From positions 1 through 64,000 of the forward strand of contig NZ_WMLB01000031.1 in the NCBI RefSeq assembly GCF_009709675.1: a stretch of DNA of 64,000 bases, given 5' to 3'. How positions within the stretch are numbered: the first letter of the stretch is position 1; every line of letters begins with the position of its first letter. The translations under genes were made by a program, and so were the position numbers. The DNA is from Agromyces bracchium (GTDB taxonomy: Bacteria; Actinomycetota; Actinomycetes; Actinomycetales; Microbacteriaceae). Below are positions 49,801 to 64,000 of this stretch, piece after piece. The notes beneath the pieces were generated by a model. That model worked only from the letters and a program-made list of their open reading frames with translations. It was not told the origin of the DNA and did no database searches.

Positions 49801-50866
49801 TCGCCAACCCGGTGAGAAGTGAGCCAGAAGCGTTAGGGAGGTCGACGTGCAGGTGGTTGCAGCTGTCGTCGAACTCTTCGAGATTGCGAAACGCGATCGC
49901 ACTACCTACGGCGGCTCGACACTGCGCCTGGCCGACGCGGGCTCCGGCAGGCATGGCGGGGTCGAGCATCGAGATGAGGCGTACGGAGTATGAGTCGGCA
50001 CCAGTGAGGGCATGTCCGTCGAGCGAGTAGAAGTCGACGGCGTGGCCACCGCCTTTCGTCCAGTGTGAGGAGTTGGTGCCGGCGCCGAGGAGTGAGCCGG
50101 TGCAGTGTCGGTTGAGGTCGCTGATGCCGACGGTGTCGAAGGTGCGGACGGCGAGGACGATGACCTGCAGGGTGCCGATCTCGATGCCGCATCCGGGCAC
50201 GTTGCGGCCTACGGCGATGTCGGTGATCTGCTCGAGGTAGCGAGGCTCGAGCACACGGAGCCGGCCGGCCTCGACGGCCGCGGCGAGTTCCTGTGCGAGC
50301 GTCGTCGCGTCACCGTCGATGCCGCAGGCGCCGGCGCTGGATGTGCTGGTGAGTGCGTTGACGACTTCGACGGCGGCTGAGTAGTAGGGCGTGTAGTGGT
50401 CGGGGTCTTGGTTGATCTGCACGGTGTGCGCTGCCAACGATGGCTCTATGGTGTCCCAGCTGGGGACCTGGGCGAGTCGGCGGAGGAAGGCTGTGGCGGC
50501 CGTTGCGAGGTTGAGTCGGTCGGCGCGGGTTCCGTAGGACTCGCCTTGTTGGAAGACGCCGATGGTGGTGTTGTCGACATGGTCGCCGTGGTCGAGATTG
50601 CGGAGCGAGCTCTCCCCCATCGCGGTCATCACCGCGATCGTGGCCGCGCGGGGCGGCAGGCCGAGCTTCGCGGCAGAGTTCATGATCATCGCGGCGATGC
50701 CGAGTTGGGTACCGTCGTATCCGGCGACCGGGCCTGACTGTTCGGCGGTGGTGGGGTTGATGGTGCCGCCGCCGCAGCTGGCGGTTGCGGTGTTGAGCAT
50801 GAATGCGCCGCCGAGGAGGGTGCCGAAGATGATCGCGCCGGCGATGCCGATGTTCCGGGCCCGCAT
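49790..50866 (-). CDS. Cell-wall hydrolase of the transfer apparatus (lysozyme-like plus M15-like domains)
   Basis: A 358-residue protein with an N-terminal membrane or signal helix (NIGIAGAIIFGTLLGGAFML). Residues about 50-170 resemble a lytic-transglycosylase-type domain (GIAAMIMNSAAKLGLPPRAATIAVMTAMGESSLRN; FQQGESYGTRADRL). The C-terminal part keeps HAVDFYSLD...CNHLHVDL, with spaced His/Asp as in M15/D-Ala-D-Ala peptidases. It would open peptidoglycan for the conjugation channel. It is 7 bp after the VirB4-like gene in the same operon. Confidence 0.75.
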   Translation of the reverse strand: MRARNIGIAGAIIFGTLLGGAFMLNTATASCGGGTINPTTAEQSGPVAGYDGTQLGIAAMIMNSAAKLGLPPRAATIAVMTAMGESSLRNLDHGDHVDNTTIGVFQQGESYGTRADRLNLATAATAFLRRLAQVPSWDTIEPSLAAHTVQINQDPDHYTPYYSAAVEVVNALTSTSSAGACGIDGDATTLAQELAAAVEAGRLRVLEPRYLEQITDIAVGRNVPGCGIEIGTLQVIVLAVRTFDTVGISDLNRHCTGSLLGAGTNSSHWTKGGGHAVDFYSLDGHALTGADSYSVRLISMLDPAMPAGARVGQAQCRAAVGSAIAFRNLEEFDDSCNHLHVDLPNASGSLLTGLANVY

Positions 50867-50873
50867 CCGCTGG

Positions 50874-52325
50874 TCACCGGTTCCGCTCGGTGGGGGCGGC
50901 GAGAGCTTCGTCGGTGTTGGTGACGTCGATTTCCCAGTTGGAGCGGATGTGTTGGACGTGGGTTTCGGGGTGGGCGCCGTACTTGAACACGTAGTGGCCG
51001 TCGCGGAGACGGGTGATCTGGTCGGTGGTGTCGGGGTCGAATCCGAAGGTGTCGGTGCACCAGGCGGCGTCTTCAGGTCGCCCTTGCCGGAACACGTAGA
51101 TGCTCTGGGCTTCTTGGATGATGGTGACCCCGGGTGAGTCTCGGGGAACGTCGGTGCCCTTGTGCATGACGAACACGTTCGCGATGCCGAGACCGCGGGA
51201 GAGCTTCTGGTTGGCCTTGATCAGGCGCGCAGATGGGCCACCGATCATGTGCCAGCCCTCTTCGTAGACGACGGTGGTCGCCCAGCCGCGGTCGGCGCGG
51301 AGCCGGCCGAGCATCCACATGTTCCCGATCGCCATCACGACCGGCACCGCGGGCCCGTCGTCGGGGAGTTGGGAGATGTCGAACGAGGTGAGCTTCCCGG
51401 TCAGGTCGACGCTGGCCGAGGTTTCCCCATCGAGCAGGCCGGCGTATTCGTCGAGGAGCCCGTTCAGCGTCCACCGCACCGCGAGGCCCGCATGGTGGAG
51501 CGCGTCCTTCGCGCTCGGTGAAAGGTCCCGGTACTGGTCGTCGTCGATGACGCCCAGGTTCGGGACCACGTCGGCGAGGGTCGGCACCCGACCGTCCTCG
51601 AACTTCGCGAGGGTGCGCCGGAGCGCGGCCCGGAGTGCTTCATGTTCGGCGCCGTCGAGGTGCTGGTCGTCGCGGGCGAGGCGGGCGATGGTGGCGAGGA
51701 GGCGGGCTTGGCCGCGGGTGCCGGTGCCGCGGGCGATGACGGGGTCGAGGAGGTTGAGCCGGGTGCCGGTGCCGTCTGCGGTGAACCTGATGGGTTCGGT
51801 GCCGTACCGGCGGACGACGTTGGAGTATTCGCCTTCGCCGGCTTGGTCCTTCTTGTCGAACACGACCGCCCGCCGGCCGGTGAGGACGAGGGGGCGGAGC
51901 ACGCAGACGGTCTTGACGAAGCTGGATTTGCCGGCGCCGACGTCGCCCATGACGACGGTGTTTGGGCTGGAGACCTCCCGGGGTTGCGCGTTGTACGCGG
52001 TGATCGGGTCGTGGGTGACCGAGGTTCGGGAGAGCACGTCGCGTCCGTTGACGACCCCCTTGGTGCCGGTGGGCGGTCCGATCAGTGCGGTATTGAGGAT
52101 CTCCGCCTGCCGGGTCGATGTCGGCGCACCGACCACGGAGGGCGCGTAGTGCCCGCGCGCGGCGGCGCGGTGGTTGGTGCGGAGGGGTGCGCCAGGTCGT
52201 TCCCACGGGACGAGCTCGGTGGTGTGCGCCGCCTGCTCGGCGGGCGTCGTCTCGGGTGGTGGGGCGAATGCGCGGAGGACGGGGAGGGACCAGATCCGGC
52301 TCGTGGCCGGGGTGGTGTCGGTCAT
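50874..52325 (-). CDS. VirB4/TraC-type conjugation ATPase
   Basis: A 483-residue ATPase. Walker A is GDVGAGKSSFVKTV (about residue 127) and Walker B is VVYEEGWHMIG (about 360), as in VirB4-type motors. It drives assembly or substrate transport in the transfer channel. The N-terminal VirB4 half is short; the upstream SCO6880-family gene likely supplies the missing part. It overlaps that gene by four bases (ATGA, 52322-52325). Confidence 0.87.
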   Translation of the reverse strand: MTDTTPATSRIWSLPVLRAFAPPPETTPAEQAAHTTELVPWERPGAPLRTNHRAAARGHYAPSVVGAPTSTRQAEILNTALIGPPTGTKGVVNGRDVLSRTSVTHDPITAYNAQPREVSSPNTVVMGDVGAGKSSFVKTVCVLRPLVLTGRRAVVFDKKDQAGEGEYSNVVRRYGTEPIRFTADGTGTRLNLLDPVIARGTGTRGQARLLATIARLARDDQHLDGAEHEALRAALRRTLAKFEDGRVPTLADVVPNLGVIDDDQYRDLSPSAKDALHHAGLAVRWTLNGLLDEYAGLLDGETSASVDLTGKLTSFDISQLPDDGPAVPVVMAIGNMWMLGRLRADRGWATTVVYEEGWHMIGGPSARLIKANQKLSRGLGIANVFVMHKGTDVPRDSPGVTIIQEAQSIYVFRQGRPEDAAWCTDTFGFDPDTTDQITRLRDGHYVFKYGAHPETHVQHIRSNWEIDVTNTDEALAAPTERNR

Positions 52326-53968
52326 GTGAGGGCCTCCTTCTCGGTGCGGCCGGCGAGGAGCCGGTAGGCGCGGGCGGACAGTGACCGGTCGGTCGCGGTC
52401 TGGCCGCGGCCGATGGGCCAGGTCGTGCCGGACGCGGCGGCCTGGTAACTGTCCTGCCAGTCGAGGTACTCGATCCCGAGCGCGGTCTGGCAGGCTTCCT
52501 CAAGCTGCCGGGACGCACGGGCGAGTTCGTCGCGGGAGCGTGCCGAGATCGTGACGTACCCGGTCCAGGCGACGCCGTGGTGCCCGGTGCCGGCGCGCAG
52601 GTCGGTGCGGCGGCGGCGGGACGCGGTCATTGCGGTGCTGGTTTCGTCGAGGTCGACGGTGCCGTGCTCGGTCTTGGAGATCGCGTCGGCCTGGTCGCGG
52701 ACGAGGTCGCGGTTCGCGGCCGCTTTCGCTTCCGCGGCGGGTACGAGGTGGAGGTGGAAGCTGACTGTGCGGACGAAGTCGAGGTCGCGGCCGATGAGCA
52801 GCTCCAGCATCCACAGCTGCGTGCGGCCGCCGGTGGAGAGGTTGCGGGCGTCGATGCGGGCGGTGCGGTGCCACCAGGTCACTGGTGCCCCGGTGACGGG
52901 GTCGCGGTCGTCGACGATGTGGGCGGAGAACTCGTCGTGGCTGGGCAGTCCGGTTCGGGAGGGGTGTACGTCGGCGACGTAGTCGAGCGGGCGGGACGGG
53001 TTCTGCTGGTGCAGCATAGCCGCGGTGACCTGCCGTGCTGAGAGCACCTCGACCGCGCCCATGCGCGCGTCGACCAGGCCCCGGTACACGGAGCCGATCT
53101 CGGTGGCCATCAGGTTCCGCCATCCGTCGCGGCCGTCGCCGTGCTTCGCGGCGGCGGCGGTGAACTCCGGGGTGAGTGGCCACTTCACGGTGATGAAGTG
53201 GCGTTGCACCATTGCCCCGTCCCCGGTTCGGCGCAGCACCTCCTCATAGGACGCCCGTGCAGCTGGCGGGGCGGTGGGGTCGAGGTTGTTGAGGACCCAG
53301 AACTCCTGCAGCGCGGTGTCGGCGGGCAGGACTCGGGTGACGGTCTGCACGTCCTCGACCAGCACCGAGGGAACAGCACGGGCCGCGAGGAAGGCGCCCC
53401 AGGCGGTTGCGGCGCGGTTCATCACGGTGCGGGACTCGATGCCGCGGAGTTGCCCGCTGACGGTGAACACGACCGACAGGTACGCCGGTTCCCCGACGGG
53501 TGCGTGCCAGGCGATTCCGGGGATGCCGCGCCCGTACTGCAGCCAGCCCATCCCGTCGGCACCGTCGGGGTTGGCCCGCATCCCGTTCAACGCGCGCCGC
53601 GCCTGCCATTTGGCGTGGCGGCCTTTCGCGTCGCAGGCGGCTTGCTCGAGCTGGTCCCACGCGGCGACGTCGTACGGGACGAACGCGTCGGTGCCGGCCT
53701 GGATCCGGTCCCGCCACCGTCGCCGCTTCTTCCGCCGGCCGAGGATCGTGCCCCGGTGCGTGCGCGCGGTCAGCACCAGCGTCACCACCACCGCGACCAG
53801 GCCGAACAGCAGCGCGGGCCAGCCGATGAAGATGGTGAGCAGCATTGACGCGAGCACGACGACGATCAGTGAGCTGGTGCGGGCCTTCGAGCTCGTGCCG
53901 CCGAAGAAGGACCGGTGCCCGGCCTCCCCGCCGAGATGCCGGACCACGGGCGCCTGTGTTGGGGTCAT
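52322..53968 (-). CDS. SCO6880-family transfer protein (VirB4 N-terminal-like, membrane-anchored)
   Basis: A 548-residue protein typical of actinobacterial conjugative elements. Two membrane helices at about 32-68 (SLIVVVLASMLLTIFIGWPALLFGLVAVVVTLVLT) are followed by a basic segment (RRKKRRRWRDR) and a large soluble region. It probably joins the VirB4-like ATPase to the inner-membrane complex. It overlaps both neighbours by four bases. Confidence 0.85.
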   Translation of the reverse strand: MTPTQAPVVRHLGGEAGHRSFFGGTSSKARTSSLIVVVLASMLLTIFIGWPALLFGLVAVVVTLVLTARTHRGTILGRRKKRRRWRDRIQAGTDAFVPYDVAAWDQLEQAACDAKGRHAKWQARRALNGMRANPDGADGMGWLQYGRGIPGIAWHAPVGEPAYLSVVFTVSGQLRGIESRTVMNRAATAWGAFLAARAVPSVLVEDVQTVTRVLPADTALQEFWVLNNLDPTAPPAARASYEEVLRRTGDGAMVQRHFITVKWPLTPEFTAAAAKHGDGRDGWRNLMATEIGSVYRGLVDARMGAVEVLSARQVTAAMLHQQNPSRPLDYVADVHPSRTGLPSHDEFSAHIVDDRDPVTGAPVTWWHRTARIDARNLSTGGRTQLWMLELLIGRDLDFVRTVSFHLHLVPAAEAKAAANRDLVRDQADAISKTEHGTVDLDETSTAMTASRRRRTDLRAGTGHHGVAWTGYVTISARSRDELARASRQLEEACQTALGIEYLDWQDSYQAAASGTTWPIGRGQTATDRSLSARAYRLLAGRTEKEALT

Positions 53969-55365
53969 GGGCGGCTCCCTCCGATGACGCCGTCTTCCAT
54001 GGGTTCGACGGCCTGCTCGGCGGCGGCGTTGCCGAGCTGCTGCCCCGCCTCCGCGGCCTTCAACCCGGCCGCGGCGATCAGCGTCGGTACCCCGATCGCC
54101 GCCCCAACCCCGGTCGCGGACTCAGCGGCACCGGCCGCGGCGACCGTCTCCGCCGCGCCCGCGGTCGACGCCGCACCCGTTGCCGCGGCGGCTGTGCCGC
54201 CCTCGGCACCTGCGAGGCCCGCCGCACCGGTTGCACCGGCCTCGCCGACGGCGCCGGCCGGTCCTGTCTGGGCGGCGGCGACATCCGACAACCCACCACC
54301 GTCTGCCCCGCCAAGCTCGCTGACCGGGACGTCGGCGGCGGTCGTTTCCGACATGGCGGGCTGCGGGCTCGTGGCAGCATCCACGGGTTGGTCGGCGTAG
54401 CGGTTGGTGGCTTCGGTCATGCTGGCCGGACCGATCTGCTGGCCGTTCAGCGTGGGCCCGTTCGTGCCGCCGACACCGGCGGGCATCGGGATCGGCGCGA
54501 ACTTCAGCAGCATCAGCGGGGCGAGCGCGGCGATGTAGATCGCCAGCAACGACACGATGAACGTCACCAGCGCCTGCAGGGCGTCCTTCTCACCGAGGGT
54601 GGTGACGTTGCTGGCCATCAGCCCGTAGGCGGACCCGAGGAGGAAGAACAGCAGCGGGTGCGCGGCGAGGATCCCCAGCCAGAGGTACCCGATCCGGAAG
54701 CCCGCGTCGCGGCCGTTCGGAGTCGTCACCCACGCGAACACGAGCGGGGCGAGGATCCCGGTGAAATACAACGTGACCAGCTGCACGATCAGCATCAGCA
54801 CGACCAGGAACAACCCGACCACCATGCACAGCATGAGGATGATGCCGATGAACACTCCCCCGGTGATCCCGGCCGGGTCCGCCCGCTCGATCATCACGAC
54901 CAGGGTGTCGACGACCTCGGCGTAGTTGCCCGCGATGCCCCACCCCATTACGGATGTCGACAGGGCGTGGAAGAACTGGACCAGCAGGATGCCGAACATC
55001 GGCCCGAACATCGCGCCGATCATGAACGCGGGCCAGAACAGCACGATCGAATCCAGCAGGTCTCGGCCTGCCATCGTGCCCCGCGCGACCCGGACGAACT
55101 GCGGCAGCAGCAGCACGATCGCGACCAGGATGCCGCCGGCGAACGAGATCGCATACGCGTTGAGGAACCACTCCGCGCTCAGATCCGGCATCGTTGCCGT
55201 CCCCAGCGCGGGTAGCACGTCTTGCGCCAACCCCGACGCGGCATCCTTCAACATCTGGAACGTGTTCCCCGCCGGGTCCTGCCAGAAGTTGATCGTCCCA
55301 CCGATCGTCTCGCCCAGTCCGGTGAGGCTGCAGAGTGGGTTGTCGCACGGGTCGAGCGTGAGCAT
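53965..55365 (-). CDS. VirB6/TrbL-like inner-membrane channel protein
   Basis: A 466-residue protein with seven or eight hydrophobic helices at about 60-330, and a soluble Ala/Gly-rich tail (350-466) of low complexity (AAGAAESATGVGAAIG). VirB6/TrbL proteins form the channel in the inner membrane. Its ATG at 55365 shares one base with the stop of the upstream gene, with GGAGG upstream. The tail length and composition are characteristic of actinobacterial versions. Confidence 0.82.
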   Translation of the reverse strand: MLTLDPCDNPLCSLTGLGETIGGTINFWQDPAGNTFQMLKDAASGLAQDVLPALGTATMPDLSAEWFLNAYAISFAGGILVAIVLLLPQFVRVARGTMAGRDLLDSIVLFWPAFMIGAMFGPMFGILLVQFFHALSTSVMGWGIAGNYAEVVDTLVVMIERADPAGITGGVFIGIILMLCMVVGLFLVVLMLIVQLVTLYFTGILAPLVFAWVTTPNGRDAGFRIGYLWLGILAAHPLLFFLLGSAYGLMASNVTTLGEKDALQALVTFIVSLLAIYIAALAPLMLLKFAPIPMPAGVGGTNGPTLNGQQIGPASMTEATNRYADQPVDAATSPQPAMSETTAADVPVSELGGADGGGLSDVAAAQTGPAGAVGEAGATGAAGLAGAEGGTAAAATGAASTAGAAETVAAAGAAESATGVGAAIGVPTLIAAAGLKAAEAGQQLGNAAAEQAVEPMEDGVIGGSRP

Positions 55366-56042
55366 CAGCAGCCTCCGGTGAAGGGCGTCCCGATCGCGAA
55401 GAGTTCCTCTGTCGTTCGATCGAGACTGGCCTCGTCGAACTGCCATCCGTCGTCTGCCCAAGTAAGGGTGAAGGTCTTGGCCATCCGGAAGGTTGGGTGG
55501 AGCTCACCGTCAATCACGAGACCCGCGCCGACGGTGACCACCGCGTCGACGTCGGAGTACGACTCGAGGTGCCACACGCCGGGCACGGTCGACAGATGAA
55601 AGGGCGTTCCGTCTGGAACGAGGGATCCGGATGTGTTCGGGTCGTCCGCGTAAGCGGAGGCGAGGTCGTACGGCGACGAGCTGGCAACCAGTTGCTGCTC
55701 GAACTGATCGATGTCGTCGACCGAAGGCACCGGATATTGGTGCATCCACCGCAACACCGCCGCCGCAACTTCGACGGCGCCATTGCTGGTGTGAGGTGCC
55801 TGGTCCTGCGCAGCGAGAACCATCGCAGCATCGCGAGAGCCCCCACCGAGGCATCCAGTGGGGTCAGCATCGAACGTCGGCGTGGCGGTCGCGTCGTCGG
55901 ACGTCATGGGCGCGGCGTGGTCGCCGTCGGCGTTCCATCGGTCGGTGATCCAGACGCCGCCGGCGACGGTGAGCGCGATCGCTGCAGCGGCGGCAAGGAT
56001 CCAGGGCACGATCCGTCGAGGTGGGCGAGGTTGTGCGCGCAC
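55365..56042 (-). CDS. Membrane-anchored transfer-operon protein, unknown
   Basis: A 225-residue protein with an N-terminal basic stretch and one helix (WILAAAAAIALTVAGGVWITDRW), then an extracellular region with TFDADPTGCLGGGSRDAAM and a C-terminal TFTLTWADDGWQFDE fold, as seen in VirB8/SCO-type lipoprotein-like partners. GTG at 56042 follows the upstream stop by 8 bp. Its place between the pilin-like and VirB6-like genes makes a structural channel role likely. Confidence 0.65.
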   Translation of the reverse strand: MRAQPRPPRRIVPWILAAAAAIALTVAGGVWITDRWNADGDHAAPMTSDDATATPTFDADPTGCLGGGSRDAAMVLAAQDQAPHTSNGAVEVAAAVLRWMHQYPVPSVDDIDQFEQQLVASSSPYDLASAYADDPNTSGSLVPDGTPFHLSTVPGVWHLESYSDVDAVVTVGAGLVIDGELHPTFRMAKTFTLTWADDGWQFDEASLDRTTEELFAIGTPFTGGC

Positions 56043-56050
56043 GGCCGGTT

Positions 56051-56338
56051 TCAGTTTCCGAAGATGGCGAGGATGGCGCCGACGATGACGGCGACGGCGG
56101 CGAGGAGGCCGAGTCCGAGGCCGGCCCAGAGGGCTTTGGTGCGGGCGTTCTTGTATTCCATGGGGTTGCCGTTGGAGCCGCCGGCTGCGGAGAGCTGGGC
56201 GAGGCTGATGATCAGGAACGCGGCGCACGCGATCAGGGCGAGGCCCCAGAGGCCGGCCATGAGTTTCTGCCAGAGTTCGGTGAACTCGGCGCCGAAGATC
56301 GCGAAGTCGGGGACGATGCCGTCGAGAGGGTTTTGCAT
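56051..56338 (-). CDS. Pilin-like (VirB2/TrbC-type) small membrane protein
   Basis: A 95-residue protein with two hydrophobic helices (LMAGLWGLALIACAAFLIISLAQL and ALWAGLGLGLLAAVAVIVGAILAIFG) joined by a short polar loop (GGSNGNPMEYKNART). This is the VirB2/TrbC pilin pattern, but the signal peptide is not typical. ATG at 56338 has AGGAG upstream. It is 19 bp downstream of the ParA-like gene. Confidence 0.65.
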   Translation of the reverse strand: MQNPLDGIVPDFAIFGAEFTELWQKLMAGLWGLALIACAAFLIISLAQLSAAGGSNGNPMEYKNARTKALWAGLGLGLLAAVAVIVGAILAIFGN

Positions 56339-56357
56339 GCTGGTGCTCCTTGCCTGG

Positions 56358-57677
56358 TTATCGGATGCGGTGCTGCAGGGAGGTGATGGTCTCGGCGGCG
56401 AGCCGGGTGAACGCCCGACGGGTCGCTGGCGCGAGGCGGTCGAGGGTGAGCTGCCCGCGTTCGGCGATGTGCGCGTCATACGGGACCTCGAGCACGACGC
56501 TGACCCGGGCGGTGTCGAGGAGTTCGGTGATGCGGTCAACGACGTGAGGGTGCTCCGGACGTCCGTCCGTCAGGCGGACGATGATCGCCTGATCGGCGAG
56601 CTCAGCGGCGTGGCCGCCGAGGCTGCGCAATTCCTCGAGCATCGCGAGCGCTTCGAGGACCGCGTCGCCGGCGTTCAGCACGGGGACGACGAGGACGTCG
56701 GCGGCGGCGGTGGCGGCGTGGAAGGCGTCGGAGCTGGGTTGGTTTCCGGAGTCCATGACGCGGATCGCGTAGTACTCGTCGATCACCGCGGCGACTCGGC
56801 TGACGGCGTCGCGGGTGAGGCGCTCGCGGCGGCCCGGGGAGCCGATGACAGCTGCGAACGAGGTCTGCGGAGCGGTGTAGCCAGCGAGCTGCCCGGCGGT
56901 GCGGATGGTGTCGATGTCGCGGACGAGTTCGCCGATGCCGCGCGGCGGCGTGCCTTCGGCCCGGAACGCGAGCGCGCCGGGGTCGTCTGCGACTTCGACG
57001 ATCGCGACCGAGCCGCCGCGGATCGCGGCGAGTGTTCCGCCGAGCAGGAGCGAGACGGGGGTCTTCCCGGTGCCGCCCTTGCGGTTGGCGACGAGCACGC
57101 TGACCGCCCTGATCCAGGTCGCCTGCCGGATGGTCTGCTCGTCCCGACGGACCGCATCGGCCTGCTCGCGTTCGGCCTGCTCGGCACGGCCCGGCGCGAC
57201 CCGGATACCGAGCCTGCCGAGCAGCCCGCGCATCCCGGTCGATGCCACGACGGATGCGTGCGGGGCGGTGAGCGAGACGAACTGCTCAACGCTCAGCTCC
57301 GCCGCGGGTGGCGTCGTCGTCAGGGTCGCGTCAACCGTCGGATGCGGGTCGGCTGGCAGCTCGACCTCCGGTTCGGTGTCGTGCTGCTGCCGGGCGATCG
57401 CGCGGATCTCGGCGAGCTCGGCGCCGTGGATGGTGTGCGGGCTCTCGACGTACCCGGCGGCGCGCTGCGCCCCGGCGAACACGCCCGGCGCCGCTGCGTC
57501 CACGGGCGCCGCGGGGGTCGGCGCCTCGGATGGTGTTGATTCGGTCGGCACCTGCGCGTGGGATCGCGGTGCACCGCAGGCGGTGCAGAACTGGGACCCG
57601 AGCTGGTCCGACCCGCACCGCCCGCATGCCTGGGCCGCGTCCTTGACCGCGATAGCGTTGGTTGTCGGCTCGTTCAT
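56358..57677 (-). CDS. ParA/MinD-type ATPase with N-terminal zinc ribbon
   Basis: A 439-residue protein. Residues 18-36 form a zinc ribbon (CGRCGSDQLGSQFCTACG). A Pro/Ala-rich linker follows, then a deviant Walker A VANRKGGTGKTPVSLLL and the MinD-like VAIVEVADDPGALAF and VMDSGNQPSSDAF segments. It probably positions the element or the channel (partition- or ComM-like ATPase in transfer loci). ATG at 57677 has AAGGGGGAA upstream. It is first in the transfer operon. Confidence 0.85.
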   Translation of the reverse strand: MNEPTTNAIAVKDAAQACGRCGSDQLGSQFCTACGAPRSHAQVPTESTPSEAPTPAAPVDAAAPGVFAGAQRAAGYVESPHTIHGAELAEIRAIARQQHDTEPEVELPADPHPTVDATLTTTPPAAELSVEQFVSLTAPHASVVASTGMRGLLGRLGIRVAPGRAEQAEREQADAVRRDEQTIRQATWIRAVSVLVANRKGGTGKTPVSLLLGGTLAAIRGGSVAIVEVADDPGALAFRAEGTPPRGIGELVRDIDTIRTAGQLAGYTAPQTSFAAVIGSPGRRERLTRDAVSRVAAVIDEYYAIRVMDSGNQPSSDAFHAATAAADVLVVPVLNAGDAVLEALAMLEELRSLGGHAAELADQAIIVRLTDGRPEHPHVVDRITELLDTARVSVVLEVPYDAHIAERGQLTLDRLAPATRRAFTRLAAETITSLQHRIR

Positions 57678-57856
57678 CGTTCCCCCTTCACCGCCTCGCG
57701 GCGTGACCCCCGTTTGAGGGTAGTGGATGGTTCGGATGTGATGTCGGGCTGTGGAGAACGACGTGATCGAACCGCCACCATCGTGAGAACAAACCCGCTG
57801 AACCGGGCCGAGAATTCTCCGCCCCGCCGACCGAGCGGCTGGGGCAGAATGTGGGA

Positions 57857-58168
57857 ATGCCGGCCCGTGTCGATCTCGTGGACCTGCCGCCCCGTGCGGC
57901 GGCGGCGCGTGACGCGGTCGCGGGGCATGCACGGGTGGCGGTGCTGCGGTTCCTGTTGGATCATCCGGACTCGACCCGCCCGGCAATCGTGGCCGGCACC
58001 GGGATCAGTTCGGGTGGGGTGCGGTCCGCGCTGGCCGAGCTCGAGCAGCTCGGCTTCGTCGACGCTGATGCAGCGCAGCCCCGGCGCGGGCAGCGGGTCC
58101 GGTACGCCGCGAACCGGCGTGTACTCACCGACGACCTCACCGCGTTCGTCGCATGGATGCTGCACTGA
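57857..58168 (+). CDS. Small winged-helix regulator (ArsR-like)
   Basis: A 103-residue protein with a winged helix (AVLRFLLDHPDSTRPAIVAGTGISSGGVRSALAELEQLGFVDAD) and a short basic tail. It is divergent from the parA-like operon, with 179 bp between, so it may control it. No metal-binding Cys motif is present. ATG at 57857 is chosen over the GTG six bases upstream. Confidence 0.75.
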   Translation: MPARVDLVDLPPRAAAARDAVAGHARVAVLRFLLDHPDSTRPAIVAGTGISSGGVRSALAELEQLGFVDADAAQPRRGQRVRYAANRRVLTDDLTAFVAWMLH

Positions 58169-58190
58169 ATCCGCACGATGCAGCGGGCGA

Positions 58191-58556
58191 TCAGTGGCCG
58201 GCTTCATCGGCCCAGTCCGCGATCAGTTCGGCGAGCTCGTCATCGACGCTGCGCCGGGTCCGTGACTGTATGAGGGTGGGCAGGAATCCGCGGATGGCGG
58301 CCATGCCAGCTTGTGCGGTGGGGTGGGTGCCGAGGCTGACGAGGAGTCGTTGCCGGTCGGTGGTGCGGATCTCGATGAGCGGGTAGTGCTCGGCGTCGAT
58401 GGCCCCGTGCAGGTGGTGACGGCGGGCGAGGTTGTTGCCGAGCATGCCGCGCACGGTGGCGACCTGGTCCAGGTTGACCCAGGTGTCCCGGTTGGACGGC
58501 AGCGGTTCCCCGTCGCCGTTGAGGTCGGTGATCGCGATCCTGATGAAGTTCGCCAT
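58191..58556 (-). CDS. Hypothetical protein
   Basis: A 121-residue soluble protein, MANFIRIAITDLNGDGEPLP at the start and a helical C-terminus (VDDELAELIADWADEAGH). No family recognised. Its 3' end lies 22 bp from the convergent winged-helix gene. A GAGGGGACGAACGGC site precedes the ATG. Confidence 0.6.
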   Translation of the reverse strand: MANFIRIAITDLNGDGEPLPSNRDTWVNLDQVATVRGMLGNNLARRHHLHGAIDAEHYPLIEIRTTDRQRLLVSLGTHPTAQAGMAAIRGFLPTLIQSRTRRSVDDELAELIADWADEAGH

Positions 58557-58674
58557 GCCGTTCGTCCCCTCGCCTCGTGTACAGTCCGTGTGCGGTTCAG
58601 GCTGCCGGGCGGGAACCGGACGACGGGTACGTCGGTGGCGGACTGTGGACGGATCCGCCTCTCAGGGGGAGTGT

Positions 58675-58726
58675 GAGGGGCGCACCCCTCACCGCCCGTG
58701 GGCCGGCCGGGGCCGGTCCCACGGGC
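58675..58726. terminator. Two hairpins after the 239-residue gene
   Basis: GAGGGG/CCCCTC with CGCA loop (58675-58690) and a longer 15-bp stem with one bulge (58694-58726, GCCCGTGGG arm) follow the stop of the minus-strand gene at 58735. Together they probably end its transcript. Confidence 0.6.
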
Positions 58727-58734
58727 GCAGGGGG

Positions 58735-59454
58735 TTAGGTGAAGTCGGGCAGGAGTTGCGGCTTCGGGAAGGTGCCGCCGTGCTCCTCGAGCACGGCGGT
58801 CGCGATCCGCATCGCAGTGTCGAGCGTCATCCCGACGGGGCGAATCTGGGTGCGTTGCGCGCGCCGCAACTGCTGGTGGCGGTGTTGGCGCGCGACACGT
58901 TCGTCCCGGCCGACGATCGTCGCCCAGATCGGGTGTTCGGGCTGGACGGGACCGTAGCCGGGGTGAACGATCGCCCACTGAGTGAACGGGAGGTGCTGGG
59001 CGTGGCGGGCGAGCACCTCCTCCGGGTTTTCGGCCACGCGCGCCGCCCACGCGCGGGCGGCCTGCCTGCGCTGCGCGATCCGCTTCGTGGTGTGCTGGTC
59101 GGCGGCGATCATTGGTGTGGGCATCATCGCGAGCGTGGACGCGTGCACGTACTTGCGGCGGTTCGCGGTGAAGTGCGCCGCGAGCACCGCGCGGCGCTGC
59201 TGCTCGGCCTCACGTTCGGCGGCCTGCCGAGCCTCGCGTTCGGTGCGGGCGGCCTGCACGGGCTTGCACCACGCGACCATCTCCCGCATGGCGGCGAGCA
59301 GGTTGTGATCCAGCACCGCCTCCCGTGCGATGTGTTTGAACTTGTGCACCGGCATCCGTTCCATCCGGTCGAAGAACGCGGCCGCCTCGGCCCGGTTGAT
59401 CTCAACCTGCGAGGCCGCATCGGCCACGGTCCGCGGAGTGGTGTGCTGGCGCAT
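58735..59454 (-). CDS. Hypothetical helical protein of the mobile element
   Basis: A 239-residue protein with a strongly charged helical centre (RTEREARQAAEREAEQQRRAVLAAHF; RIAQRRQAARAWAARVAENPEEVLARHAQHL), likely a coiled coil. No membrane helix or known motif. ATG at 59454 has AAGGAGA upstream. It could be a replication or mobilisation accessory; not recognised. Confidence 0.6.
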   Translation of the reverse strand: MRQHTTPRTVADAASQVEINRAEAAAFFDRMERMPVHKFKHIAREAVLDHNLLAAMREMVAWCKPVQAARTEREARQAAEREAEQQRRAVLAAHFTANRRKYVHASTLAMMPTPMIAADQHTTKRIAQRRQAARAWAARVAENPEEVLARHAQHLPFTQWAIVHPGYGPVQPEHPIWATIVGRDERVARQHRHQQLRRAQRTQIRPVGMTLDTAMRIATAVLEEHGGTFPKPQLLPDFT

Positions 59455-61071: not shown

Positions 61072-61282
61072 CTACTTTGCGGACCGGCGAGTTGTTCGAG
61101 GGGAACGGCCGCTGGTTCTACGAGCGGCCGTGGCGTAGGACTCGAGCGCGGCGCGGAACGCGACCGTTGTCAGTCGAGAGATCGATTTCGTAGCCGGCGC
61201 CATCGATGGTGAAGGCGATGGTCTCGGCTGCGTCCGTGCCGTCGATGTCATCGACGAGCGTGACGACCGTCCTCTTGGCCAA
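61072..61282 (-). pseudogene. lsr2: lsr2 (nucleoid-associated protein), frameshifted and truncated
   Basis: The N-terminal domain is recognisable: LAKRTVVTLVDDIDGTDAAE, then TIAFTIDGAGYEIDLSTDN. From about 61160-61170 homology continues in another frame (VAFRAALESYATAARRTSG), so one frameshift is present. The C-terminal DNA-binding part is missing; the shifted frame stops at 61072. Lsr2 silences AT-rich acquired DNA in actinobacteria; this copy is unlikely to do so. The start is a TTG (61282). An IS5-type element begins 48 bp upstream of it. Confidence 0.75.
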
Positions 61283-61379
61283 TACCGGGGTTCCCCTCTT
61301 GCTGCGCGCGGGTCCAACCCGGGTTGCACCTAGGCCGTGTTGCTAAACCAATCTTGCGTGTTCGACGATCCTTGATGGC

Positions 61380-62337
61380 GTGTCTCGCGATGTGATCTCC
61401 GATGAGGTGTGGGACGTGCGCGGTCCGGTGTTCCCGGCCGCCGCGGCGACGGGGCGCCCTCCAGCGGATCGGCGCCTCGTCGTGGAGGCGATCGCGTGGC
61501 ACTACCGGACCGGCGCACCGTGGCGGGATACACCGGAACGGTTTGGGAACTGGAACACCGTTTACAAGAACTTCGATCGGTGGTCCAAGGCCGGCGTTTG
61601 GGCGGACTTGCTCGAGCATGTCCAGTCGCTCGCGCTGGCGAACGAGGATCTGGACTGGGTGGCCTCGATCGACTCCACGATCGTGCGCGTCCACCAGCAC
61701 GGCGCGACCCTCCCGCGCACCACAGGGGGCTCGAACGAACTACAAGAAATTTGGTCCCGAGCCTCCTGATCACGCGATCGGCCGCTCCAGGGGCGGGGTG
61801 ACGAGCAAGACGCACCTGGTCTGCGACGGCAGAGGACGCCCGCTCGCATTCATCCTCACCGGCGGTCAAGTCGCCGACACGTCGATGCTGACCGAGACGA
61901 TCTCCCAGATCCGCGTTCCCGGTCCTACCGGCCGGCCGCGCACCCGCCCCGACCGGATCATCGCCGACAAGGGCTACCCGTCCAAGGCGAACCGCGCCTG
62001 GCTACGCGAACGCGGCATCGCCTCGACTATCCCTGAACGCGCCGACCAGATCGCCCACCGCAGCCGGCGCCCCGGCCGGCCGATCGACTTCGGCCCCGAG
62101 CAACGCCGGCGCTACCGCGGCCGCAACGTCGTCGAACGCTCCTTCAACAAGCTCAAGCAGTGGCGCGGCATCGCGATGCGCTCTGACAAGACGGCCCGCA
62201 ACTACCATTCCGCCCTCTGCCTCGCCGCGACGTTGCACTGGCTCAGCAGTGCGCCGCCGTCTCAGCGTCGGGTGATCACGGGGGGAACCCAGGTGCCTTC
62301 GGTGATGCCGGGCTTGGCGCCGTACGCGCGCAGGTAG
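61380..62337 (+). CDS. IS5-family transposase, two frames (orfA/orfB)
   Basis: orfA (61380-61769) gives VSRDVISDEVWDVRGPVFPA through DSTIVRVHQHGATLP and TTGGSNELQEIWSRAS. orfB continues one base on (+1) with ARTNYKKFGPEPPDHAIGRS and TKTHLVCDG-like segments. Together they carry the DDE triad: Asp in SIDSTIVR, Asp in IADKGYPSK and Glu in ERSFNKLKQWR. The shift site is near GGGGGC at about 61725. Whether it is programmed or a mutation is not clear. The orfB frame runs on into the passenger gene to 62337, so the normal stop is gone. Confidence 0.85.
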
Positions 62338-63641
62338 AGCGAGAACGTCGCGTCGGGCGCGGGCAACCAGTTGGCCTCGAGGTCGGCGCCTGGTGAGGTG
62401 TGTCCGACGTAGATGGTCAGCGACCCGTCGTCGCCGTAGACGATGGACTTGTTCTTCGTGCCCAATGAGTAGCGGCGCAGATCGTTCGGGTAGAAGAAGT
62501 GATCGTCGTCGTACATCGTCAGCGACCAGAACCCGTCGACCGGAGGCAGATCACCGGCCGCGAACACGACCGAGTACTCCTGCCCGCCAGTGAGCTGGTT
62601 CCCGTCGGAATCGTCGTCTGTGTAGAAGTACTGGGTCTCGTTCGGCCGGTTCTCGAACATGTTCGACCGAGACGTCGCCGCACGGTTGTGATAGTCCAAG
62701 CCCCACTGCGAGTTGTTGACGGACCGGTTCCATCCGTTGGCGGCGTCCCTGCCGTTGTACCGCCACTGCATCGCATGCGGCGCGAACGTCTCGTCAGCGG
62801 CGTGGAACGCGGCCTCGATACCGGCACGGATCTCCGGGTCGCGGGCACCAGCATCGAGCAGCGCGGTGAACTGGGCGTACAGGGCGTCCTCACCCGGCTG
62901 CGGTGCGACCGTCGCGAGCACCTCGCCGAGCTGGTCGAAGAACGTCTCCGGCCGCACCCATTTCGTCTCCGCGCCGCCTGCGTTCGGTCCGGCGTCGAAC
63001 GAGGGGACGTCGCTCCAGTCCTTGGTCTTCATCTCACCGGTGTAGTCGGTGAGCGGGTACACCATCACCTGGTTCACCAACGGTTGGATCGCGGCCCGGT
63101 CCTCGTCGGTGTCGTCCATGAAGATCCGCGGGATCGCATTCGCCAACGCGGTCGGGCTGCGGAATACATCCGTGATCCCGGCCGGAACCTCGCCGTGCCA
63201 GTCAGGCCCGACCAGCAGGTAATGCCCCGGCGTGCTGCCGTAGGGCGAGCCCAGGTCACCGAACTGGTCCGTGCGGGCGTCGTAGAACGCGTACACATAG
63301 AACCGGTCACCGAAGTCGGGCACCTGCACAACGACCGGCTGCTCATCGAGCGAGAAGAATCCCAGCCCGTACACGACATCCTGGTTCGGGCACGCGATGA
63401 ACCGCTCCGCCGGCTCGATGTAATCGTTCAGCATCGCGATCTGCCCGATCGGCGACGCCGGCAGCACACCGCCCAGCCGTCCAGGCTCAGGCGCTGCGCC
63501 CAACCGGGTACGACGGTTCATCATGTTCACCATCGGGTAGCCCCAGACATACGCGAACTGCGCCACCGACGACACATACGACGGCTCCAACGCCGACGCC
63601 CCACTCGGCATCGCCAACCCCGCACGCACAGCCTCATTCAT
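62262..63641 (-). CDS. DUF1254/DUF1214 domain protein carried inside the IS
   Basis: A 459-residue protein. The DUF1254 domain (FAYVWGYPMVNMMNRRTRLG through YGLGFFSLDEQPVVVQVPDFGDRFYVYAFYDARTD) is at about 20-170, and DUF1214 (QYFYTDDDSDGNQLTGGQEYSVVFAAGDLPPVDGFWSLTMYDDDHFF, LTIYVGHTSPGADLEANWLPAP) at about 325-450. No signal peptide is visible from the ATG at 63641; an upstream frame exists to 63755. Function unknown, though the family appears in enzymes acting on outer metabolites. It is convergent with, and overlaps, the transposase frame. Confidence 0.85.
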   Translation of the reverse strand: MNEAVRAGLAMPSGASALEPSYVSSVAQFAYVWGYPMVNMMNRRTRLGAAPEPGRLGGVLPASPIGQIAMLNDYIEPAERFIACPNQDVVYGLGFFSLDEQPVVVQVPDFGDRFYVYAFYDARTDQFGDLGSPYGSTPGHYLLVGPDWHGEVPAGITDVFRSPTALANAIPRIFMDDTDEDRAAIQPLVNQVMVYPLTDYTGEMKTKDWSDVPSFDAGPNAGGAETKWVRPETFFDQLGEVLATVAPQPGEDALYAQFTALLDAGARDPEIRAGIEAAFHAADETFAPHAMQWRYNGRDAANGWNRSVNNSQWGLDYHNRAATSRSNMFENRPNETQYFYTDDDSDGNQLTGGQEYSVVFAAGDLPPVDGFWSLTMYDDDHFFYPNDLRRYSLGTKNKSIVYGDDGSLTIYVGHTSPGADLEANWLPAPDATFSLYLRAYGAKPGITEGTWVPPVITRR

Positions 63642-63762
63642 CCCAGACCCCCCAATCCCAGACGCTGCCACCATCGGCCACGCGACGACTCCCACGCTAT
63701 CCGGTCGAGCCCCAAAGCGACCATTGCCAAGACAACCGATCGACTTCAGCAACACGGCCTAG

Positions 63763-64000
63763 TCCGGCTCGTGGCGGGCTTCGGTGAGCCGTTCGGCGGG
63801 TTCCGTCTCTGCACTGGAGCAGACAGCACGACAGATAGCGACAACAGAACACCGCGATCTAACGCCGACAATCACACGTGCTCGGAGACCCATCCGGGAT
63901 GCGCGCCGTAAATCGACCGTTTTCGGTTCAGGGAGCCGCCCCGAGCGTCGCGGCGCTGAATCCCGCGTGTTGAACACGCCCGTGGATATCGTGGCAACGT
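63763..64000. other. Right edge, no supported gene (238 bp)
   Basis: A 72-codon minus-strand open frame (63759-63977) shows no domain and begins near the window edge. The stretch flanks the IS5-type insertion; it may be the end of a gene cut by the window. Confidence 0.3.

Follow-up and report, generated by a model that had tools for sequence, protein, structure and literature searches.

A probable IS5-family tIS with a DUF1254/DUF1214 passenger in Agromyces bracchium, and relatives with other genes in the same slot

Insertion sequences (IS) of the IS5 family end in short inverted repeats and duplicate a short target centred on TA. Elements in which passenger genes travel inside the ends of a single IS (transporter IS, tIS) have been described in other IS families (PMC9330008), and ten target duplications are reported for one element with a downstream passenger, ISPa75-fosZ (PMC12888890). 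No IS5-family tIS was found in the literature searched, with ISfinder and most subscription papers outside its scope; none is mentioned in the available portions of PMC6305408, PMC7371123, PMC9330008, PMC11092175, PMC12888890, PMC10132070 and PMC3004938, and 'IS5' occurs 0 times in the main text of PMC6305408.

The DNA analysed here (the window) is a stretch of 64,000 nucleotides of A. bracchium contig NZ_WMLB01000031.1, and contains a 2,425-bp unit (61334–63758) made up of an IS5-type transposase gene and a convergent DUF1254/DUF1214 gene (Table 1). The initial annotation had given the unit these limits, with matching ends and CTAG on both flanks, and they are exact: an 18-nt terminal inverted repeat (61330–61347 and 63745–63762) is 94% complementary, and the core end motif GGCCGTGTTGCTRAA, with up to 2 mismatches, is found at two sites in the 64 kb, which are the two ends of the unit. 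The expected count is 0.20 per 64 kb, and two matches were seen in 1 of 100 shuffles. The outer right inverted repeat (RIR) has 0 mismatches to the RIR motif, which in 495,928 strand-bases of background DNA is matched once with at most 1 mismatch in its 13 fixed positions, this single match being a related element in locus L022, and 8 times when 2 mismatches are allowed. Chance matches are rejected as the source of the ends by the GGCCGTGTTGCTRAA shuffles and the background rarity of near-perfect RIRs. CTAG or a close variant flanks most members of the clade; with flanks such as TTAG/CTAG at L083 and TCAG/CTGA at L090, the target duplication may be anywhere from 2 to 4 bp long. The L090 flanks, which belong to a DF-family element, lie within palindrome-like sequence and are not CTAG on both sides.

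Table 1. Coordinates of features of the unit and its flanks in the window
Feature	Position	Strand	Basis
Left CTAG (target sequence, presumed duplication)	61330..61333	none	Read from sequence
Left inverted repeat (without CTAG)	61334..61347	+	Repeat and motif searches, ends of relatives
Transposase ORF A (N-terminal part, DUF4096)	61380..61769	+	ORF list, Pfam
CACAGGGGG, candidate site for a +1 shift from ORF A to ORF B	61721..61729	+	Conserved in relatives
Transposase ORF B (DDE_Tnp_1), usual stop lost	61730..62258	+	ORF list, Pfam, relatives
Ancestral right inverted repeat position, now decayed or replaced	62242..62260	+	Simple relatives
Passenger, DUF1254/DUF1214 protein, 459 aa	62262..63641	-	ORF list, Pfam, DUF1254 tree, solved relatives
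Passenger upstream region	63642..63744	-	RBS-like purine stretch by inspection
Outer right inverted repeat, presumed functional	63745..63758	-	Repeat and motif searches, relatives
Right CTAG	63759..63762	none	Sequence and relatives

The transposase gene occupies two different frames, with Pfam matches of ORF A to DUF4096 (1.3e-25) and of ORF B to DDE_Tnp_1 (4.9e-19). The unit thus has a DDE transposase of the IS4/5 type with a DUF4096 N-terminal part, and also the short terminal inverted repeats and TA-centred target duplication of the IS5 family. CACAGGGGG is found at the ORF A/ORF B overlap in 27 of the 33 sources scanned, the window included, and is likely a programmed frameshift or slippage site at which a +1 (or −2) shift would fuse the two ORFs. 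No relatives of the transposase were found in the viral contigs searched.

The passenger has 459 codons, from an ATG at 63641 to a stop at 62262, and is oriented toward the transposase gene; both of its domains score above the Pfam cut-off (DUF1254, 5.9e-37; DUF1214, 4.4e-34), which, with the transposase matches, bears out the earlier claim that a single unit combines an IS5-family transposase with a 459-residue gene. Its solved relatives (3u07, 3vb9 and 2p3y, including VPA0106 and VPA0735) are uncharacterised or hypothetical proteins, and our literature search yielded no paper naming both DUF1254 and DUF1214. No sigma-70-type promoter was detected in 61200–63900, although a sigma-70 model says little for such a host. 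The same genome has a separate DUF1254 gene on another contig (67% DNA identity). The closest homologue is a Gordonia gene (L045) with 78.7% DNA identity that is limited to the gene; it has no such IS ends and is interrupted by a frameshift in its record. The dN/dS ratio between the passenger and the Gordonia gene is 0.13, indicative only since dS is near 1, and the ratios for the DUF1254 passenger of L011 (0.51) and the cargo of L050/L051 (0.58) are too high to support strong constraint on those genes.

Relatives of the element were obtained by a whole-element DNA search of 60 genomes of the genus and an IS-part search of 398 genomes of the family, both sets including the window's own genome, with best identities of about 70–86%. 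DNA similarity to the passenger-free relatives ends at about 62245–62250, where their RIR starts. In 32 of the 53 elements with an identified right end, the offset between the RIR and the aligned end of the transposase is −5 to +7 bp (the simple form), and in 26 of these 32 the first in-frame stop is inside the RIR or its CTAG. The transposase had been noted to lack its normal stop, and indeed the listed open frame of ORF B (61402–62337) continues past the RIR position of the relatives, which fits loss of the RIR together with its stop. Nearly all elements with both points located have their left end about 916–930 bp before the transposase end. The initial annotation had the passenger joining the element by recombination near 62250: the position agrees with the point where similarity stops, but recombination as the route is not borne out, and the different cargoes found at the same slot in relatives lead us to reject a one-off recombination event.

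In the other 21 of the 53 elements, that of the window among them, 374–1497 bp separate the transposase from the RIR. The inserts mostly hold one whole gene, in either orientation, and represent 15 different cargoes: DUF1254 (the window and L011), a LysE exporter with a divergent AsnC regulator (L054), AHSA1 (L055), GNAT acetyltransferases (L058, L068 and L075), a CAAX-type protease (L072), an EXLDI protein (L083/L084), DUF6226 (L082), a DF-family-like protein below the cut-off of that family (L007, L061–L063, L090 and L091), and four proteins without a Pfam family above the cut-off (L004, L009, L070 and L085). The cargo stop codon lies inside the RIR in L075 and L085. An apparent decayed inner RIR is visible by inspection in the cargo elements L004, L009, L058 and L070. 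A DUF1254-like gene located just outside the left end of the DF-family element in L007 (L027:3745-5055, genome G006; 28–29% identity) was set aside as a neighbour, not cargo. We consider it likely that the window unit is an IS5-family tIS bounded by the outer RIR, with a decayed inner RIR.

All loci were chosen by similarity to the window. The genus search used the whole element as its query, so that L011 entered the set through its passenger; the IS part was used for the family sample and the transposase for another search, and on plasmids 12 IS regions and two DUF1254 regions were examined. The 53 elements include L068 once, and the truncated second copies L006_b, L050_b and L051_b are among the 32 simple ends; outside this count are loci where no right end was found (for example L010, L073, L078, L092, the + strand copy of L082, and the loci L015 and L017–L021 of other subgroups). 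In the 398-genome family sample, 27 of 29 non-window loci were resolved and 10 of the 27 are extended, with eight distinct cargoes because L061–L063 are one element. When more distant IS5 relatives were sampled across the class, 17 of 29 non-window loci were resolved and one of the 17 is extended; the other 12 include L127, L128, L130 and L135, whose distant 14/16 repeat pairs were counted as chance, and L107 is the same place as L065. The one extended locus (L123) is from the same host family as the window. It is a member of another, related subgroup of IS5, in which the ends are of the GAGACACG type, and has a tautomerase gene at most 492 bp beyond the transposase. The cargo habit looks concentrated in the clade or host family, as far as small and related samples can tell (10/27 versus 1/17; Fisher p = 0.03, ignoring relatedness).

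Elements with cargo on the other side suggest how such units may arise. L050 and L051 share a common 1.84-kb unit (90% identity, with homology ending at the outer ends) that consists, in order, of an inverted RIR together with some 100 bp from the 3' end of the transposase, then a gene (235/244 aa; the L050 protein has no Pfam family), a degenerate left end, the transposase and an RIR. L006, a single copy, has a like layout with its cargo on the left side, and the remnant of the second copy spans about 75–150 bp in the three elements. We interpret L050, L051 and L006 as half-composite transposons, in which a gene lies between a full IS and the worn end of a second copy; the right-extended elements would represent the last stage of this wear.

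Our preferred route to the window unit is enclosure of a gene between a complete IS and a leftover end of a second copy. A simple IS of about 930 bp, its transposase gene ending inside the RIR, would have become the neighbour of a DUF1254/DUF1214 gene that had another IS end beyond it, most likely the last remnant of a second IS copy. By inspection, left repeats, simple RIRs and outer RIRs have about 16–18 bp in common. If the transposase needs little beyond the terminal ~16 bp, it would therefore have mobilised all DNA from the left repeat to the outer RIR, pairing these two ends and inserting at a CTAG target; the inner right end, no longer needed, would then have decayed. The lack of clear transposase remnants adjoining the outer ends, and the limitation of their similarity with IS ends to about 16 bp, would also suit a different origin of the outer RIR, as a surrogate end arising de novo in flanking DNA by one-ended mis-transposition. 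Such an origin is compatible with a tIS. We find it the less probable of the two, as background DNA very rarely contains a near-perfect RIR and L050, L051 and L006 keep about 75–150 bp of a second copy, though on the left side. None of the 21 right-extended elements has a clear second-copy remnant beside the outer RIR: the best DNA match is in L068 (E = 0.006), with others at 0.07 or worse or absent, and six-frame matches, all weak and the strongest (E = 5e-7) lying inside the passenger gene of the window, were taken to be compositional.

Evidence for movement comes from the sister elements. The Leifsonia sp. ZF2019 plasmid NZ_CP065038 carries two copies of the EXLDI element whose flanks differ but whose 1,555 bp, from TAG to TAG, show 100% identity. 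A DF-family element of about 1.31 kb occupies six sites in six genomes or plasmids (L007, L061, L062, L063 and plasmids NZ_CP038257 and NZ_CP064874), again with differing flanks, and its copies are 99.2–99.8% identical in the five pairs compared, some alignments running a few bases into the flanks. Identical or near-identical copies between different flanks indicate that cargo-bearing members move as units. The window element itself has one copy in its own genome. No match spanning both the IS and the passenger was found in the other 59 genomes of the genus, and searching the two halves in the 398-genome family samples, with few candidates scored per genome, revealed no second copy. Searches with DUF1254 likewise found no second copy in the order sample (3 of 396 genomes match, its own included) or the class sample (3 of 394, its own included), and the one new match in these samples (L081) is a homologue without a transposase. 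The proposed search for other copies thus gave similar ends with different cargoes in relatives, but no second copy of the window element.

The CTAG that the initial annotation took for a target duplication is present on both flanks, and the empty site it called for is represented by a short, approximate candidate in genome G011. This locus matches the left-flank region (87% over 294 bp) through one CTAG, and has neither the IS nor the DUF1254 gene. To the right of the CTAG the match is weak, with 10 of 20 positions identical (as good in 2,192 of 63,980 window 20-mers) and one 8-nt run (equalled in 22 of 63,980), after which homology stops. The next G011 sequence is found, as a 39-bp match, about 3.9 kb further to the right of the window element, a displacement that suggests the insertion site may be a hotspot. 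To the right of the element in the window contig is a 944-aa ORF that by inspection resembles restriction-modification enzymes (L026:15000-17834). ORFs of conjugation and ParA types, again by inspection, occur at 50000–59000 of the window, which raises the possibility that the contig is a plasmid or an integrative element.

These data bear on whether the unit ever moved as a whole, as it could instead be a static mosaic in which a simple IS lies beside a resident DUF1254 gene with an unrelated IS end beyond. The exact element being in one copy, its closest passenger homologue (Gordonia) being without IS ends and the empty-site match being short are all in keeping with a mosaic, but we regard it as unlikely: CTAG lies on both outer sides of the unit, the outer RIR is far beyond chance, the G011 left flank passes through one CTAG into the 8-nt right-flank match without the IS or gene, and sister elements of like layout move as units. 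We infer from sequence that the window's own copy transposed, that short ends suffice and that the passenger is expressed. The initial annotation named two findings as arguments against its reading, and both occur: homologues of the passenger without the ends (e.g. Gordonia L045), and, among the relatives, shorter ISs with an RIR at the equivalent place. Both are in keeping with a simple IS having captured a foreign gene.

Trees of the transposase and of the cargo were used to follow these captures. The transposase tree has 47 rows, with L011 (too truncated) and L068 left out, L070 and L072 as long branches, and the + strand L082 copy, whose right end was not found, scored as extended. The extended label needs 10 changes on this tree (bootstrap 9–11), at least 4 of them forced by strongly supported branches; it is also clustered (shuffle mean 14.9, none of 500 as low), to which near-copies contribute. 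The DUF1254 tree (27 rows) pairs the window gene with the Gordonia gene (100/100) and groups the L011 gene with same-genus genes not bordered by these ends (100/99). The two DUF1254 genes are in different supported branches, and were thus probably captured independently, in the same slot and orientation. Replacement of the gene inside an old IS5-DUF1254 element is possible. Descent of the window element and L011 (G012) from one ancestral IS5-DUF1254 transposon would explain their equal order, orientation and slot, but is very improbable given the supported branches that split their DUF1254 genes and the sister relationship of the window transposase to that of cargo-free L003 (91/88).

With many captures in one slot, decayed inner ends, half-way forms (L050/L051) and recent moves, the steps from a simple IS to a gene carrier are readable and testable in this group. 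It also suggests a role for very small elements, on plasmids as elsewhere, in the spread of ordinary genes such as DUF1254/DUF1214. Having repeatedly taken up different genes in one place, these elements offer a simple and natural means of carrying single genes from one genome to another. There is about an even chance, in our judgement, that this Microbacteriaceae-like IS5 clade is a general carrier of single-gene cassettes, in which short ends, a tolerant transposase and a gene between a full and a worn copy make a compact autonomous mobile gene. The clade would then provide a recurrent, IS-based way of making integron-like cassettes that needs no integrase.

Among known systems, the tIS of PMC9330008 share the design of the window unit, with passenger genes enclosed by the one pair of ends of a single IS, and here too a passenger uninvolved in transposition lies inside the IS ends, although the portions of that source available name no IS5-family example. 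ISPa75-fosZ, as far as described in the parts available (PMC12888890), also has its passenger downstream of the transposase and a right end resembling the ends of other ISs, but differs in its family (IS66), resistance cargo and host (Pseudomonas). ISArsp12 (IS481) and ISPst2a/b (ISL3) of Arthrobacter plasmids are likewise actinobacterial with small passenger sets (ArsR and a permease), but are of families other than IS5, according to the available text of PMC6305408. ISKpn21, ISKpn65 and ISRel10 are likewise tIS, with one additional ORF each, all different, but are assigned to the IS1202 family, and their extra proteins lack a Pfam match of known function (PMC10132070, available parts). Composite transposons share with the window unit a gene between two IS-derived ends, but are defined by two IS copies flanking the gene, whereas one copy is complete here and the other, on the right side, is a short end of 14–18 bp.
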